Assembly: GCA_030052745.1 (NCBI GenBank)
Contig: JANBVO010000026.1
Coordinates: 418,477 to 482,476 of the forward strand
Source: Pleurostoma richardsiae
Taxonomy: Eukaryota; Ascomycota; Sordariomycetes; Calosphaeriales; Pleurostomataceae
DNA: 64,000 nt
Direction of reading: 5' to 3'
Part shown: one piece after another, positions 28,610-41,547 of the stretch
Layout of the letters: each line of letters begins with the position of its first letter
How positions within the stretch are numbered: position 1 is the first letter of the stretch
Notes under the pieces: model-generated
Told to the model about the DNA's origin: nothing
Databases searched by the model: none
The model's input: the letters and a program-made list of their open reading frames with translations, nothing else
Translations under genes and position numbers: made by a program

Positions 28610-29686
28610 CTAAATGCCGTCATAAGGCGCCCATGAGCATGTCTCGGCCGTTCTGTACACGGCAGAGCCGACAACCGATTTCTGCCTCGCAGCCCTCTCG
28701 TTCTGACGAGCCCAGAAGCTGAAAGAAACCGGCGTCGCCGGCAGCTCCACCGGAGAAGCGACTCTGAACGTATGGACGGTTCCAACTTTCGTATCAGAGG
28801 TCACGCGCCAGGGGTACGGCGACTTAGGCGGCGGAGGCGGAGGGTCTCGAGCCGAAGGGAGGATGATCTTATGCTTTGGTTTCCTCAGCAGATGGGTGAG
28901 TCTGCTCCGATTCATCCAAGCGATGACCATCAGTCCGAAGACTGAGAATGCGCCAGCGGCGGCGGATCCAGCAATGATACCCGCAGTATGGGGACTGCCC
29001 GAGGTCGGGGAGGATGAGTTGCTTGCCAACGCGAAGGGATCGCTCGAGGTGACCGTTGTGGTTGTAGGGGATAGGTTAGGGGACTCGCTTACGCGAGAAG
29101 CCGCAACCGTCGACGATGCAGAAGTTATAACAGAAGTTGTACTTGCGGTCTCCACTGTCGTGGAAGGTAGAGCGTCTTGAATTGAAGTCGAAGAGGCAGC
29201 TTCGGCAGAGTCGAGGACACAAGCGGATCCGTTGACGCATTTGTAACCAAACGGACAGCAGGTTGAAGAACCAGACTCGTCCGTGCCGCAGTTCGGCAGA
29301 TCCGTGGTGAGGTTTGTCGTATGTATGGGGCTTTCAGGGGATAAAGTGACGTTCTGAGCCCGGATGTCGCAAATGATGGGTAAGATGTTCTGGCAGTCTC
29401 CGCCTTGGGGGCAGCACAACGCAGTCGTGTTCCCCGCGAGGGCCAGGCAGACCGTGTCTGTCTGGCAGCAGAAGTCGTCGGGGAGCCCCTGACCGCATGG
29501 ACTGAAGTTAGATGAGGGGCATGTCGATACGCTCTGTCTCCGGTGCGGGAATCCGTCTGCTTGAGGTGGTGAGATGCGCAGTGAGACCGGATTCAACGTC
29601 GCTGAGACTGGCACGTCTAAGCTGTAGATAACACGAACAACAAAACAGAAGCAAATTGATACTGGAACACATTTGGGAGGGAGCAT
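28610..29686 (-). CDS. Cys-rich single-pass surface protein (WSC/Mid2-like architecture)
   Basis: A predicted type I plasma-membrane or cell-wall-associated protein of about 358 residues. From the ATG at 29686, an N-terminal hydrophobic stretch (CVPVSICFCFVVRVIYSL) may be the signal peptide. A cysteine-rich ectodomain follows (CGQGLPDDFCCQTDTVCLAL ... CCPQGGDC ... STCCPFGYKC). Next is a Ser/Thr-rich stalk of about 80 residues, one TM segment (GIIAGSAAAGAFSVFGLMVIAW) with a basic stop-transfer (MNRSR), and a cytosolic tail with a polyproline run (DPPPPPPKSPYP). The layout resembles fungal wall-stress sensors, but I see no proper WSC domain. The start is uncertain: the frame extends 38 codons upstream without an ATG, so a 5' exon may be missing. 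Confidence 0.65.
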   Translation of the reverse strand: MLPPKCVPVSICFCFVVRVIYSLDVPVSATLNPVSLRISPPQADGFPHRRQSVSTCPSSNFSPCGQGLPDDFCCQTDTVCLALAGNTTALCCPQGGDCQNILPIICDIRAQNVTLSPESPIHTTNLTTDLPNCGTDESGSSTCCPFGYKCVNGSACVLDSAEAASSTSIQDALPSTTVETASTTSVITSASSTVAASRVSESPNLSPTTTTVTSSDPFALASNSSSPTSGSPHTAGIIAGSAAAGAFSVFGLMVIAWMNRSRLTHLLRKPKHKIILPSARDPPPPPPKSPYPWRVTSDTKVGTVHTFRVASPVELPATPVSFSFWARQNERAARQKSVVGSAVYRTAETCSWAPYDGI

Positions 29687-30910
29687 TGGTGACTGAGGTA
29701 CATGGATACATGGACCGAGCCGACTGATTACATGCTGCGGATATAACAAGAGGGAAAGCAGACAACACACATGAGAAGGAATAAGAGCAGAGAAACTCAC
29801 GTACTACATAGATCTCTTATATCACAGTGCAACTTCCCCTAAGGGGTAATAACAGACCGCATCTCAGTGAGAGATGCGGCGGACACTATGCGGCCATCGA
29901 CCTGACGATACTATCGTCTGGTGGCGCCCTGAAAAAACGGTCGCTTTCTAAGGAGCGGACGTCGCAGAGAGCAGCTCCAGGTCGCCGCGAAGACGGCCTA
30001 TGCCGAGGGAGCTAAGGAGGCCGAGCAATAGCCAGTGCGCTGGAGCCGCCGATCCAAGTTCCCGGGACCGTTGCTACAGGTTCCGTTGCTGTTGGTTCCG
30101 CCGAAACAAACAAGAAGGGGTTGAAGGCATGCAGGAGGCGGCGGCAGCATGGGCGCCTGTTCCATCGCGGGCGTCTATTTTTAGGATGTCATTTGCCCGA
30201 CACATGTCCACAGCACAGTTGGTAATGAAGATGGATGGCATTATGTGTCTGCCCAACTTGAGGCAGCTGAAAGTCCAGGTCTATTTTCCCAGGAGGTTCT
30301 TCAGACGCTGGTGTTGAAACAAACAGGCAAAGTCCCGTGAGCAAACGCCAGAGGTTGATGACATTTCATGTTGAGTTAAGGCTATGTAGATATAAAATAA
30401 CATAATCCAAGGTCTACTTGTATGTTTTTAATAACTAGAGTAACAGAATAAGAAAAACTACTTACCTGAAAGATGTTGCTGCTTGACAGCGTGTGATGTG
30501 ATACAGCCGGGCAGTGGTGTAATACACGTACTATGCAGAGTACACGGGGAGGTAGAGGGACGCCGGTACGTTCGGAGTCGAGGTGACGGAGTGAGCCCCG
30601 AACCACCCCGCAAAAAGGGGCCCAGTAGAGCTCTGCAGTGGACCCGTTTGCGCGTGCGAGCCTGGCGCAGCCGAGAGCTTCCAGGGCTTGCCCCGCAGAC
30701 TCCCCATTCCTCGGTCCATTGCCGAGTTGGTGATGGTGGCATGATCCCAATCGCAAGAGCACAAGACGCAGCAGCTGATGTAGCTACAGCTTACCTGCCA
30801 GCATATAAAATCACCTGCACATCCTCTCAGTCGCTGGTCCCGTGCCTCCTCTGTCTCTACCGAACAATTGAACGTCTATCATCTACCTACCGAAGAGTTA
30901 CGCCCAGATA
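29687..30910. other. Divergent intergenic region with an AT-rich patch
   Basis: About 1.2 kb between the Cys-rich surface protein and the dioxygenase gene. The stretch around 30370-30470 is clearly more AT-rich than its neighbours. Short minus-strand frames at 30382-30762 have no family resemblance. A combined acceptor/donor-like string near 30470 (minus strand) is not supported by any coding partner. Confidence 0.4.
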
Positions 30911-35647: not shown

Positions 35648-37718
35648 ATGGACACCGACGGTGCTGGCGCGCCAATGTCGCAGGACCTGCGCACCATGCA
35701 GGTCGACAATGCCATCCGCGCGATACAGGAGAAGAGGCCGCTGCCAGAGATTGATTTCAGCATCCACACCATGGAGGACGGCACCCAAGTGAACACCAAC
35801 GAGCGAGTCTGCAAAGGTACCTGCCTGCCTACCACCAGCCCTTCGACTATTCTGTCTTGCCTGCCTCCTCCGTCACCACCCCCGCTTGCCTTGTTTCTTT
35901 TGCCCCCCATCCTCCCCTCATGCGCTTGACGCCACACGGGAGAGCACGCGACTAACGTTGTGGCCTCGGCATCATAGATGTACAAGCCCCTGCTATGTTC
36001 ACACCTACCGACGAGCAATTCTTTGACGACGACACGCACACCAAGCCCAACATCACTTTCCTCAAGTCCCACTTCTACCGCGAAGGTCGATTGACCGAGG
36101 AGCAAGCCCTATGGATCATCAGGAAAGGTTCCGAGCTCCTGCGGGCCGAGCCGAACCTCTTGGAGATGGATGCGCCCATCACCGTTTGCGGCGACGTGCA
36201 CGGCCAGTACTATGATCTGATGAAGCTGTTCGAGGTTGGCGGCGACCCGGCCGAGACGAGGTACCTCTTCCTCGGAGACTACGTCGACCGGGGCTACTTC
36301 AGCATCGAGTGCGTCCTCTACCTGTGGGCGCTGAAGATCCACTATCCTAAGACGCTGTGGCTGCTGCGAGGAAACCATGAGTGCCGCCATTTGACCGACT
36401 ACTTCACCTTCAAGCTCGAGTGCAAGCACAAGTATTCGGAGGCCATATACGAGGCTTGCATGGAGTCCTTCTGCTGCCTGCCCCTCGCTGCTGTCATGAA
36501 CAAGCAGTTCCTGTGCATCCACGGTGGCCTGAGCCCCGAGTTACACACGCTAGATGACCTCAGAAATGTGAGTGCGCTCCTTTGCTTTGCCTGTCTCAAC
36601 TCTGTTGGGACGACCTCACCTGTGATGTCATGGCGAGCCATCTACTGACCGGCTGTACCCAGATTGACCGCTTCCGGGAGCCTCCGACGCAGGGCCTCAT
36701 GTGCGATATTCTCTGGGCCGACCCGCTCGAAGACTTCGGCCAGGAGAAGTCGAACGACTACTTCCTTCACAACCATGTCAGAGGCTGCTCGTATTTCTTC
36801 TCGTACCCCGCCGCCTGCGCTTTCCTCGAGAAGAACAACCTCCTCTCTATTATCCGAGCGCACGAGGCCCAGGATGCCGGCTATCGCATGTACCGCAAGA
36901 CGAGGACGACTGGATTCCCCAGCGTCATGACCATCTTCTCCGCCCCGAACTACCTAGATGTGTACAACAACAAGGCCGCGGTTCTCAAGTATGAGAACAA
37001 CGTCATGAACATTCGGCAGTTCAACTGCACTCCCCACCCCTACTGGCTACCTAACTTCATGGATGTCTTCACCTGGTCCCTCCCCTTCGTTGGCGAAAAG
37101 ATCACCGACATGCTGATCGCTATCCTGAGCACCTGCTCGGAGGATGAGCTTCGTGAGGATTCGTCCGCCACGTCACCGGGCCCGTCCTCTCCTCCCATCA
37201 CGTCTGCTGGTGCCGGCGGGATCAACGACCCGGAGTCGATTGAGTACAAGCGGCGGGCGATCAAGAACAAGATCCTGGCCATCGGGCGCCTGTCCCGGGT
37301 GTTCCAGGTCCTGCGCGAGGAGTCGGAGAAGGTTACGGAACTCAAGACTGTCTCGGGTGGGCGCTTGCCCGCCGGTACGCTTATGCTGGGTGCCGAGGGC
37401 ATCAAGAATGCTATCAGCAGCTTCGAAGACGCGCGGAAGGTTGATCTGCAGAATGAACGGCTGCCGCCGAGTCACGAGGAAGTCATGCGGCAGAACGACG
37501 AGGAGCTTAAGGCGGCCCTCGAGAGAGCGGCGAGGGAGGCGGAGAACGACAAGAAGCTGCAGACCTTGTCGAGAAGGCTGAGCACGTAAGTCATGGCCTG
37601 CGAGTTGTTGATATTTGGCATCTTTTGCGTTCTTGCAGCCCCTTGGAACTTGAGGCGAGTTGGCATTTCCTGAGACGCAAGCTGACCATCGCACGCATAT
37701 AGCGATCGGAAGCGATGA
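35648..37718 (+). CDS. cna-1: Calcineurin A, catalytic subunit (PP2B)
   Basis: Calcium/calmodulin-dependent Ser/Thr phosphatase, central to stress, ion homeostasis and hyphal growth. Exons 35648-35816, 35978-36567, 36663-37585 and a final 16-nt exon 37703-37718 give 565 residues (the Neurospora protein is about this size). PPP-family signatures are intact: GDVHGQ, GDYVDRG, RGNHE, the HGG motif ([10 protein letters not shown]) and SAPNYLD. The C-terminal region has the calcineurin-B-binding helix, the calmodulin-binding segment ([25 protein letters not shown]) and the autoinhibitory segment ([18 protein letters not shown]). The last exon changes an immediate TAA after RRLST into DRKR and stop; it is supported by a GTAAGT donor, a GCTGAC branch site and a TATAG acceptor. 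Retention of this intron would only shorten the C-terminus by four residues. Confidence 0.96.
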
Positions 37719-38145: not shown

Positions 38146-41100
38146 TTACTGCTGCATTTGGGTTTGAGGCGGGTACCAAGACTGATGCTGTCCCTGCTGC
38201 TGCGCCTGAGGCGGCTGCTGGCTATAATCAAACTGCCCAGAAGGGTAACCATAGCTGCCTCCAGAAGGATAGAACGGCTGCCCCGGCTGCCCCGGCTGCG
38301 GCTGCGGTTGCTGCGCGGCACCCGCCCCGGGGACCTGCTGGCCATAGCCGTACGCATACCCCTGGCCCTGCTGCGCGTTCTGCGCGCCGTAGACCGGGCT
38401 GCCGCCCCCGGGCGCCCCCGGAGGAGGCGGGCTGTGGCCGACCTGTGGGTACGCCGCCCCGGTCGGCGGCGAGTTGTGCGTGCTCAGCTCGCTCGCGCCG
38501 CCGTTGTGGCTCGAGAGGAGCGACCCGCCCGTCGTCTGCGACGCGACCGCCGCCGCGGACGGCGCGAAGCCGCTGCTCCCGGAGCCGTGCGCGGGGTACG
38601 GCTGCTGCTGCGGAAGCTGCGCCATGGCCGGCTGCGGCTGCGGTTGCGGCCCTCCCTGGGACGGGCCCCCAGGCCCTCCTTGTTGCTGCTGCGTCTGCGC
38701 GCCGGAGTCCTGCTCCTTGTTTTTCCTGCTCCGCCGCCAGGCCAGGAAGCTCAGCAGGCCGAGCGCGATGGCCGCGACGGGCACGCCGACGCCGATGCCG
38801 GCCTTGGCGCCCACGGATAGCCCGCCGCCCGAGTCCGGGGCGACCGCGTACGGCACGGCCCACACGACGTTGATGATGGCGGAGGTGGGCTGCCCCGTGT
38901 CCGAGGGCTGCCCGGCCAGGCCGGCGGTCAGGGTCGGCGGCGGGGCGTAGTTGGACAGGGAGCTGAAGCAGGGGGTCGCGCCGCCGAGGGCGGCGCCGTA
39001 GGGCTGGTAGTTGCTGCCGGAGACTGGTCAGTGCTGTAGCTCGGAGGGCGCGGAGGAGAATGAAGAAGAAGAGGAACGGGGAGAGAGGGGAGGGGGGGAG
39101 GGGAGACTCACCTGGGGCAGCAGCTCCCGGAGATGGTGTAGTAGTCGGCCGGACAAGCGTTGAGCGCCTGCTGCGCGCTGTCGAGGGCGGATGGGTACGC
39201 CATGGCGGAGTTGCCGCTCTGGGAGGACGTGCTGGTCACCACTGTCGTCGTCCCCCCCGCGGTGACGGTAATGGTCGTCGTCACCGGGAGGGCGACCGTC
39301 CAGGGGCAGCACTCGGGGCGGTCGGACACGCAGCCGACGAAGGGGGCGTAGAACACGGTGCTGCCCGCGTCGATGAGGGTGAACTCGGTCGTGGTGCAGT
39401 CGCTGGCGAGGATGTTGCCGCTCCCGCTGTAGGCTGGGGTGTTGACCAGGCTGGGCTGCGTGACGGGGCCGGTGGGGGTGACTATCACCACGGTACTGGA
39501 TAGGGGTTAGAGGGCTCACAGGTGGGTTATCATCGGGTTCGGCTTACGTTAAGACGAGAGTGAGGGAGGTAAAGGAGACGGAGGAGCTGGAATTCTCTTG
39601 GTTAGACCTGCAAACAATGATGATGAAGAGATGGAGCTTACGACGAGGAGAGACTCCTTGAAGACTCCGTGGAGATCGGTTCGGTGACTGATGGGTTGGG
39701 ATTACCGCCAGTCGCGCGAGCAGTTCGGCTAGATGTCGTCAGTTCTTCGGTCGATGTGGTTGTTGGTGTCCTCGACGTGGTCGTTGGTGTTGATATCCTC
39801 GTGGTCGACCTTGTCTGGCTGGATGCATAGCACTTGCTGGCACTGCATATCAAGCCAGCATCGCAGTATCCGCCTTAATATCCCTCGTGTTAGCAACTGA
39901 ATTTAGGATCCTTATGTGTTGTTGCTACGTCGCTCACCATCTGCGCAACAGACCGAGCCGGTCGGCATGCAGCCTTCTTCGCAAGGCGTCCACCCAGAAT
40001 CGCAACACGGAGTCGTGCCTGTCAAGCACCTAGAGGATATCGGTTGGCATGTTCCTGCCCCATGGCTCAATGACGGCTGGGTATTTAGCACTTACTTCCC
40101 GTTGCAACACGTTTCGCCGCTGTCACAGTAGCCAGCCCCTGGGCATGTCAGAATAAGTCGACGACACTATAACGAGTGGTGTACGTGCCTCCGTCGCAGC
40201 AGACTGAGCCGGACGGCATGCATCCATCGCCGCATGCGGTTTGACCCGATGCACAGCACGTAGCTCCTGTCACGATACACCTACAAGAAGGTAAGCCTAC
40301 CGTCGCCCGACGAGTATCGCACAAAGGGAGAACTTACTTGCCGTCGCAGCAGTCGTAGCCGACGTCACAATAGTCGCCTGAAGGCAGCTCGTCAGTACAC
40401 ATTTGATGCAGAAGAGACATCAGAGCGAGGAATGTACCTGCCCCTGTGCCGCAGCATGTAGCACCACTAGGCATACACCATCTATCGAGAAGGGTCAGCT
40501 CACGACATGGAGTGATACCTGGTCTCATGGCGTACTGACCCAGTGTCACAACATTCGTTTCCTTCGTCGCAGTAGCCCCCTAAGATCACGGTCAGTACAG
40601 CCCAGATGCCCGTATTCCGTGATCTCACCATCGGCACAACAATCCGTTCCTGTGGGTATGCATTTATCATAACACGCTTCGTTCCCCGTGTCGCAACACG
40701 GATAGTCTGAACTTATACACCTTCACCACACCTCCCGTTAGTCTTTTGCCGCCTTACTTCAGGTTGCCTCATGGGGTCCTTCGCTCACCTGTTTGTGAAT
40801 TGGTCGTTGTTACAGCATGTGCTGTTGCTGAAGCAGTAAGAAAGACCTGGAGCGTTCAGCGCATGATATCCGGAAGAGGCCAAGTATACTCACCGCAGCA
40901 TATGCCGTCCGCAGGCATGCATCTTGGAGAGGCACTGTTAGGGATTCTATGTTCGCAGCAGCCCTAGATGGGAAGCTTACCCAGAATTACAACACGCCTC
41001 ATCCGGGTCACAATATCCACCTTCAAAGGTTGTTTTAGTATTTCTTTAGCCAAAATACTGATTCAACGCAGCTGGACTCACTATTCGAGGCACAACAGTG

Positions 41101-41547
41101 CGCATCAGACGGCATGCAGCCGCCATGGCAGGCAACCTCACCGACATCGCAGCTCTGGCGGGTCTGCAGCGAGAGCTCAACCCTGCCACAGACATTCGAG
41201 ACCCAGAGGTGGGCGGCCTGGAAGTCGAGCGGCGGACATGACTGCCCGATGCACTGCTCGAAAGCGTTGAAGCTCGAGTTGAGCGGCGAGCAGAAGCAGC
41301 TCGCGTCTGCCGTGCCACATGTTATGTCTGCACAAGAGACCTAGTCTCGGGATAAGACAAGCTGTATAAGCAAGGGGAATAGGGGGAAGCACTTACTCCA
41401 CACTCAGGCTATGGATGAGTAAAAGACCTGTCAGCTGTTTGAATCTCTGCTGATGGGATGTCAAGCTAGACCTACGAGGAGAGTTGCCGAGATACTGGGC
41501 AGCAGGCTAGCCCACAAGAGTATCAACTGGAAGGCGAGTTTTGCCAT
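38146..41547 (-). CDS. 17-exon cysteine-cassette membrane protein
   Basis: A predicted type I surface protein of about 818 residues, not a family I can name. Exons, all phase-consistent: 41547-41476, 41408-41397, 41340-41082, 41020-40981, 40922-40894, 40846-40789, 40720-40629, 40579-40540, 40481-40438, 40377-40338, 40280-40189, 40138-40096, 40029-39938, 39873-39642, 39607-39548, 39495-39112, 39013-38146. A signal peptide (MAKLAFQLILLWASLLPSISA) leads to a CFEM-reminiscent domain (CGTADASCFCSPL ... FEQCIGQSCPP). About ten short cassettes follow, alternating GYCDxGxxCC and CMPxGxxCC. Then come a Ser/Thr stalk, a second Cys domain (VGCVSDRPECCPW ... CPADYYTISGSCC), a TM segment near residues 601-622 (IGVGVPVAAIALGLLSFLAW) and a Gln/Pro/Gly-rich tail. 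Cassette exons of 40-43 nt alternate with 29-92-nt exons. One intron (40188-40139) must use GC-AG. Wall or metal/haem binding is only a guess. Confidence 0.72.

Follow-up and report, generated by a model that had tools for sequence, protein, structure and literature searches.

A 64,000-nt stretch of contig JANBVO010000026.1 from Pleurostoma richardsiae (the window, to whose numbering all positions refer) carries on its minus strand, from position 41547 to 38146, a gene for a predicted surface protein with a CFEM domain, and within this gene lies what, as far as the sequence itself can tell, is a real and old array of exon pairs. We infer the splicing of the gene from its sequence rather than from transcripts: three-frame reading and the placement of splice sites give 17 exons that join into one stop-free frame of 811 codons. 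The 811-residue protein has, in order, a signal peptide, the CFEM domain, a 231-residue Cys region, a Ser/Thr stalk, a second Cys ectodomain, a transmembrane (TM) segment, and a tail rich in Gln, Gly, and Pro. The interpretation we favor, and hold to be probably correct, is that this is one gene for a single-pass type-I protein of the plasma membrane or cell wall, in which old duplications of a pair of exons, A and B, built a disulfide-pinned spacer or a ligand-binding stack.

The array occupies exons 4 to 13, which measure 40, 29, 58, 92, 40, 44, 40, 92, 43, and 92 nt in that order and whose phases alternate from 1 to 2 (type A) and from 2 to 1 (type B) without exception. Not one of the ten lengths is divisible by three, and every one of the nine sums of adjacent lengths is. 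The initial annotation of this region had described the 17 exons with these lengths, phases, and motifs, and we reproduced that description, adding the 58-nt exon 6 that its tally had left out; its proposal that cassettes can change without a shift of frame holds for adjacent pairs and fails for single exons. Each type A exon codes for a single CC motif, GYCD..CC or a variant of it. A full type B exon holds two motifs, C..TG..CC..G...C..G followed by CMP.G..CC..G, and short type B exons (29 and 44 nt) hold the second of these only. The complete GYCDxGxxCC, previously ascribed to the 40- and 43-nt exons, is present in exons 8 and 12 only, with variants in exons 4, 6, 10, and 14.

Type A exons 4 (40981..41020, 40 nt, GYCDPDEACCNSG), 8 (40540..40579, 40 nt, GYCDEGNECCDTG), 10 (40338..40377, 40 nt, DYCDVGYDCCDGK), and 12 (40096..40138, 43 nt, AGYCDSGETCCNGK) were each identified by frame, DNA pattern, and comparison of copies; exon 6 (40789..40846, SYCFSNSTCCNNDQFTNR), with its divergent motif SYCFSNSTCC, was placed by the spliced frame and a weak likeness in DNA. 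The full type B exons, all of 92 nt, are exon 7 (40629..40720; frame and copy comparison), exon 11 (40189..40280; frame, splice scoring, and copy comparison), and exon 13 (39938..40029; frame, DNA pattern, and copy comparison). Frame and DNA pattern define the short ones, exon 5 (40894..40922, CMPADGICCG) and exon 9 (40438..40481, WCMPSGATCCGTGAG). At the two margins of the array, the first half-cassette, which lies behind the CFEM domain in exon 3 (SCDVGEVACHGGCMPSDAHCC), is unsplit, and exon 14 starts with the last type A motif (GYCDAGLICSASKC). A full A plus B unit has 44-45 residues and 10 Cys with the spacing 6,0,6,3,6,0,5-6,5,0,3-4, and the whole array region holds 50 Cys in 231 residues, regularly spaced. 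On the DNA, a pair spans 174-267 bp between the starts of type A exons, and a repeat unit this short may let the array escape repeat-induced point mutation.

The repetition is visible in the DNA as well as in the protein. A pattern of the YCDxGxxCC type, allowing up to two mismatches, matches six times in the window (five of them in the gene) against 0.20 expected, and a CMPxGxxCC-type pattern matches seven times (six in the gene) against 0.34 expected, both patterns having been derived from the same exons in which they were counted. Type A exons 4, 8, 10, and 12 clearly resemble one another in DNA, as do the three 92-nt exons, with identities of 42-67% among type A exons and 60-70% among the 92-nt exons. 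The best evidence for the exons comes from setting copy against copy: over 13 exon comparisons with 223 aligned codon pairs, the copies differ 76, 71, and 148 times at codon positions 1, 2, and 3, respectively, an excess at the third position as in coding sequence. The residues that copies share exceed the mean of a random-mutation null in 13 of the 13 comparisons, which are not mutually independent and do not include exons 3, 5, 6, and 9. The 92-nt exons give the strongest of these results, the null reaching the observed value in 1, 0, and 1 of 2000 simulations, and the comparison of exons 10 and 14 gives the weakest, being reached by 70 of 2000.

Of 113 codons at which two copies agree in residue, 47 are identical; saturation of synonymous sites would predict 51.9. 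The introns of the copies are no more alike within position classes (mean z-scores of 0.61 and 0.51) than between them (0.51). Since synonymous sites look saturated and the introns lack similarity, the duplications are old; loss of intron similarity is itself expected once synonymous sites are saturated. The most parsimonious reading is that a unit of two exons underwent tandem duplication in the distant past, that selection on the protein has preserved the copies, and that smaller changes inside type B exons gave rise to the short and full forms. Neither the synonymous sites nor the introns of the copies in this gene show any sign of recent growth. The tandem exon duplication proposed in the initial annotation is upheld by the common intron positions and phases and the likeness of the encoded protein, with the exon pair as the unit and with growth that is old; for cassettes being added or lost today, this gene offers no evidence.

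How might such an array have come about, and what might it do? Probably the A plus B pair served as the unit of tandem duplication through unequal crossing-over, with the intron positions inherited together with each duplicated pair. The alternating phases would then be a fossil of the growth of the array and not a splicing device in use. Today the array may be a rigid spacer pinned by disulfides, or a stack that binds a ligand, and keep the CFEM head at a distance from the membrane; its likeliest use would be as such a spacer or binding surface between the CFEM head and a mucin-like stalk. A role in adhesion or surface sensing, of heme or iron or of wall contact, is suggested by the architecture.

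The CFEM head itself was recognized by Pfam (PF05730) in the first 91 residues, with 26.0 bits against a cut-off of 22 and a match to profile positions 4-65 of 66. CFEM domains are defined by eight Cys, a PxC[A/G] start, and an Asp before the fourth Cys. In the protein described here, the eight Cys are residues 27, 31, 36, 43, 45, 58, 63, and 79, and by eye the start reads PECG and an Asp in GTADASC stands three residues before Cys4. The PxC start is contributed by exon 2 (41397..41408), a micro-exon of 12 nt coding for PECG that was placed by the spliced frame, the splice parsers, and the CFEM score; the rest of the domain lies in exon 3 (41082..41340, 259 nt), which was placed by the spliced frame and Pfam scans. 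Membership in the CFEM family does not depend on the micro-exon, because the score without it (23.6 bits) and that of exon 3 alone (22.5 bits) still pass the cut-off. A phase-0 intron directly after PxC[AG], where the micro-exon ends, recurs in 9 of the 17 other CFEM places of the genome (L042, L045-L048, L050, and L052-L054); the same test found no intron at this point in the remaining eight. The protein had initially been left without a named family, which no longer applies to its head and still applies to the cassette, for which no family searched gave a match.

The remaining parts of the protein fit a surface location. Exon 1 (41476..41547, 72 nt) codes for the signal peptide (MAKLAFQLILLWASLLPSISATLL), and 19-residue windows with a hydropathy above 1.6 begin in three places only: at residues 4-6, within this signal; at residues 382-385, in a Thr-rich segment; and at residues 588-598. 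The last group marks the TM segment in exon 17 (38146..39013, 868 nt), where the best window starts at residue 596 and where the end of the ectodomain, a basic WRRSRKNK, the tail rich in Gln, Gly, and Pro, and the stop codon are also encoded. Between the array and the membrane lie exon 14 (39642..39873, 232 nt), which continues from the last type A motif into the Ser/Thr-rich stalk, as judged from the spliced frame and from hydropathy and composition; exon 15 (39548..39586, 39 nt), which ends the stalk with the hydrophobic SFTSLTLVLT; and exon 16 (39112..39495, 384 nt), which codes for the second Cys ectodomain and was placed by the spliced frame and its base composition. The best match of this ectodomain, to the Pfam CC domain, was rejected at 15.8 bits, under the cut-off of 20.6. 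The signal peptide, TM segment, and order of domains bear out the earlier view of a modular single-pass surface protein.

Splice signals speak for most of the proposed exon boundaries. The 16 introns are 47-98 nt long, 15 of them begin with GT, and a CTNAY branch-like site is found in 13. Scoring with a simple fungal splice matrix places 15 introns above the 95th percentile of the 966 candidates in the region (a set that includes these 16), the sole exception being intron 11 with its GC donor (GCACGT). The 12-nt micro-exon was recovered in seven of nine settings of two splice parsers that are blind to the repeats.

Several observations nevertheless weigh against the model or parts of it. The 92-nt length of exon 11 depends on the GC donor, exon 9 is followed by a weak donor (GTACAT), and the CTNAY site is absent from three of the 16 introns. 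The repeat-blind parsers returned few of the 17 exons exactly (7, 7, and 4 in three settings of one and 8, 9, 7, 6, 5, and 4 in six settings of the other), and in all six of its settings the second parser merged exons 8-10 into a single open exon of 242 nt. Exon 6 (z-scores of 0.4-2.3 against other type A exons) and the short type B exons are weakly alike in DNA. When the whole 811-residue protein was scanned, CFEM was absent from the matches listed up to an E-value (E) of 10, and AlphaFold2 gave no usable model for exon 3 alone as a single sequence by which to judge the helical-basket fold of CFEM domains, with a mean predicted local distance difference test score (pLDDT) of 38.5. The GC content at third codon positions (GC3), 0.57 in exons 4-13, reaches 0.94 in exon 16 and 0.88 in exon 17, a step that may reflect two genes or an old fusion.

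An alternative that we consider unlikely is that two neighboring genes are present, one for a secreted CFEM-cassette protein that ends at about 39640-39546 and another for a separate membrane protein made of exons 16-17. The GC3 step between exons 4-14 and exons 16-17 would be explained in this way, as would the in-frame stops encountered immediately within introns 14 and 15. The second half moreover has weak paralogues of its own (L017, L019, and L021, with E of 5.6e-4, 0.006, and 0.012), whose listed open reading frames (ORFs) show no cassette. However, introns 14 and 15, which link the first half to the second and flank exon 15, are among the best scoring of the gene (13.08 and 12.98, where the 99th percentile is 11.72), and three-frame reading by eye revealed no ATG before exon 16 that is in frame and followed by a signal peptide. 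A CFEM-cassette gene fused long ago to a membrane-protein gene would fit.

The array might also have begun as an intron-free tandem repeat in which introner-like elements, or recurrent insertion at a favored site, later interrupted each copy at the same places; we regard this as improbable. The lack of similarity among the introns of the copies is what independent insertions would leave behind, but saturation of the synonymous sites makes such a loss expected in any case. The eleven introns concerned (introns 3-13) hold two fixed phases and nearly fixed positions, and a search of the genome for two of them, introns 6 and 12, returned no further copy, which speaks against introners for these two.

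A further idea is that the array is a splicing device, in which exon pairs are skipped to produce receptor isoforms with differing numbers of cysteine blocks. That any two neighboring exons of the array (exons 4-13) together measure a multiple of three, in nine pairs of nine, is in keeping with it, and so is a rat progranulin splice variant described, in the available excerpt of the source, as consistent with exon removal (PMC1310530). We nevertheless hold this idea to be very unlikely. None of the ten exons can be skipped alone in frame, so that two must go together, and the complementarity of phases already follows from duplication. Well-scoring splice sites are present in 15 of the 16 introns. 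Exon skipping is comparatively low in fungi, as far as the accessible text of PMC6142364 goes, and in Fusarium graminearum the corresponding part of PMC3577648 counts 4 genes with exon skipping versus 211 with intron retention. Isoform diversity by skipping, the dramatic part of the initial annotation, is therefore unsupported. One feature of intron 9 (40378-40437, minus strand) may be recorded separately: the intron is 60 nt long, stop-free in frame, and has the weak donor GTACAT. If retained, it would lengthen the protein by 20 residues and keep the frame, and such retention would be the cheapest in-frame variant visible in the gene.

At the level of the gene, progranulin appears to be the closest parallel found in print. 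In animals and in the granulin genes of slime moulds, the passages of PMC4527844 at hand describe modules that are encoded on two non-identical exons, like A and B, that vary in number between taxa, and that have been duplicated in tandem repeatedly. The same source gives 12 Cys per granulin module, versus the 10 of a full unit here, and granulin boundaries lie in phase 0 according to an excerpt of PMC1310530, versus phases 1 and 2 here. The array of the P. richardsiae gene also differs from progranulin in being flanked by a CFEM head and a TM anchor, and no granulin profile matches it. It is conceivable, if a long shot, that an undescribed two-exon disulfide module has converged on the gene logic of progranulin and that the reach of a CFEM receptor is tuned by coordinated removal of exon pairs or by retention of intron 9. 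Common descent, with the array as a distant fungal relative of granulin, is scarcely credible: two unlike exons per Cys-rich module (PMC4527844, in the part available) and repeated CC pairs would suit it, but Pfam granulin (PF00396) gave no match up to E of 10 (HMMER filters drop most weak matches), the PDB search returned no granulin, the pattern of 12 Cys with four CC pairs finds no match in the protein, the phase-0 boundaries (PMC1310530, excerpt) disagree, and the authors of PMC4527844, in the portion of their text at hand, detected no granulin genes in fungi.

In animals, modular extracellular proteins are known to arise by tandem exon duplication, and symmetric (class 1-1) extracellular modules have spread there in this way. 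Like the units described here, class 1-1 modules are extracellular and disulfide-rich and have boundaries of matched phase; here, in contrast, the symmetric unit consists of two exons, neither of which is symmetric alone, separated by introns of 47-98 nt. A word search of a partial open-access library returned no case of tandem exon duplication in fungi and no CFEM gene with cysteine repeats. Among CFEM proteins, which include PTH11-type receptors, Rbt5/Pga7-type heme carriers with a glycosylphosphatidylinositol (GPI) anchor, and secreted effectors, the eight-Cys domain is common to all and to the gene described here. The available part of PMC1088943 gives PTH11 seven TM segments, whereas a single one follows the CFEM domain here, and this segment takes the place of the GPI anchor of the carriers. 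A specific Asp has a role with heme, according to an excerpt of PMC13030711, and by eye an Asp stands three residues before Cys4 here. In the P. richardsiae protein only four residues separate Cys2 from Cys3, and the cassette array follows the domain, which makes it a CFEM protein of unusual build. The age of its array could be measured in related species. A conserved domain spread over ten exons of 29-92 nt may also escape gene finders, and the two simple parsers used here did miss part of it.

Relatives of the cassette were sought in several collections. No match was found in Pfam or NCBIfam, and nothing significant in the PDB, whose sequence search listed no CFEM chain either; three sets of PDB matches were dismissed as chance (27 listed, mostly gp120, with a best E of 0.066; one with E of 0.63; and two with a best E of 0.099). 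Bacterial and archaeal genomes and viral contigs held no relative of the cassette, these collections not being fungal, so that families restricted to fungi would be missed. The Rusticalin repeats were dropped as candidates, their spacing being different in the accessible text of PMC6339383 and PMC7379824.

Within the P. richardsiae genome (39.4 Mb, 136 contigs), a second cassette gene was not found at the sensitivity used; these searches scored the best candidates only, exon by exon, and can miss distant relatives in short exons. A protein search returned the gene itself and one place on C24, which shows no cassette when read. Pattern scans with a tolerance of one mismatch yielded 15 and 45 places, versus 8 and 24 for a reversed control pattern. 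The 10 places of the first scan that lie outside the gene (L028, L033, and L036 among them) were read, as were 24 of the 39 such places of the second, and none had repeated cassettes; the other 15 have no locus and were left unread. As a weak lead, an isolated fragment (RQNCDGNFHCPGGCIPS) at G000:C49:1379236-1379349 (L088, L089:4240-4344), which is followed by a stop and lies in an AT-richer stretch with a GC content of 0.43, resembles the half-cassette of exon 3 (E of 0.023 in the genome, with the CFEM domain plus first cassette as protein query), and it is possible that it is a decayed copy or a chance match.

Two neighbors of the gene in the window may be mentioned. About 10 kb away, at 28610-29800 on the minus strand, a long single ORF codes for a Cys-rich protein with a Ser/Thr stalk, one hydrophobic segment, and the motifs CCPQGGDC and CCPFGYKC. 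On the plus strand, the stretch at 36582-37589 codes for the C-terminal part of what looks, from its motif, like a calcineurin catalytic subunit; it is convergent with the CFEM gene and ends approximately 550 bp from the stop codon of the latter.
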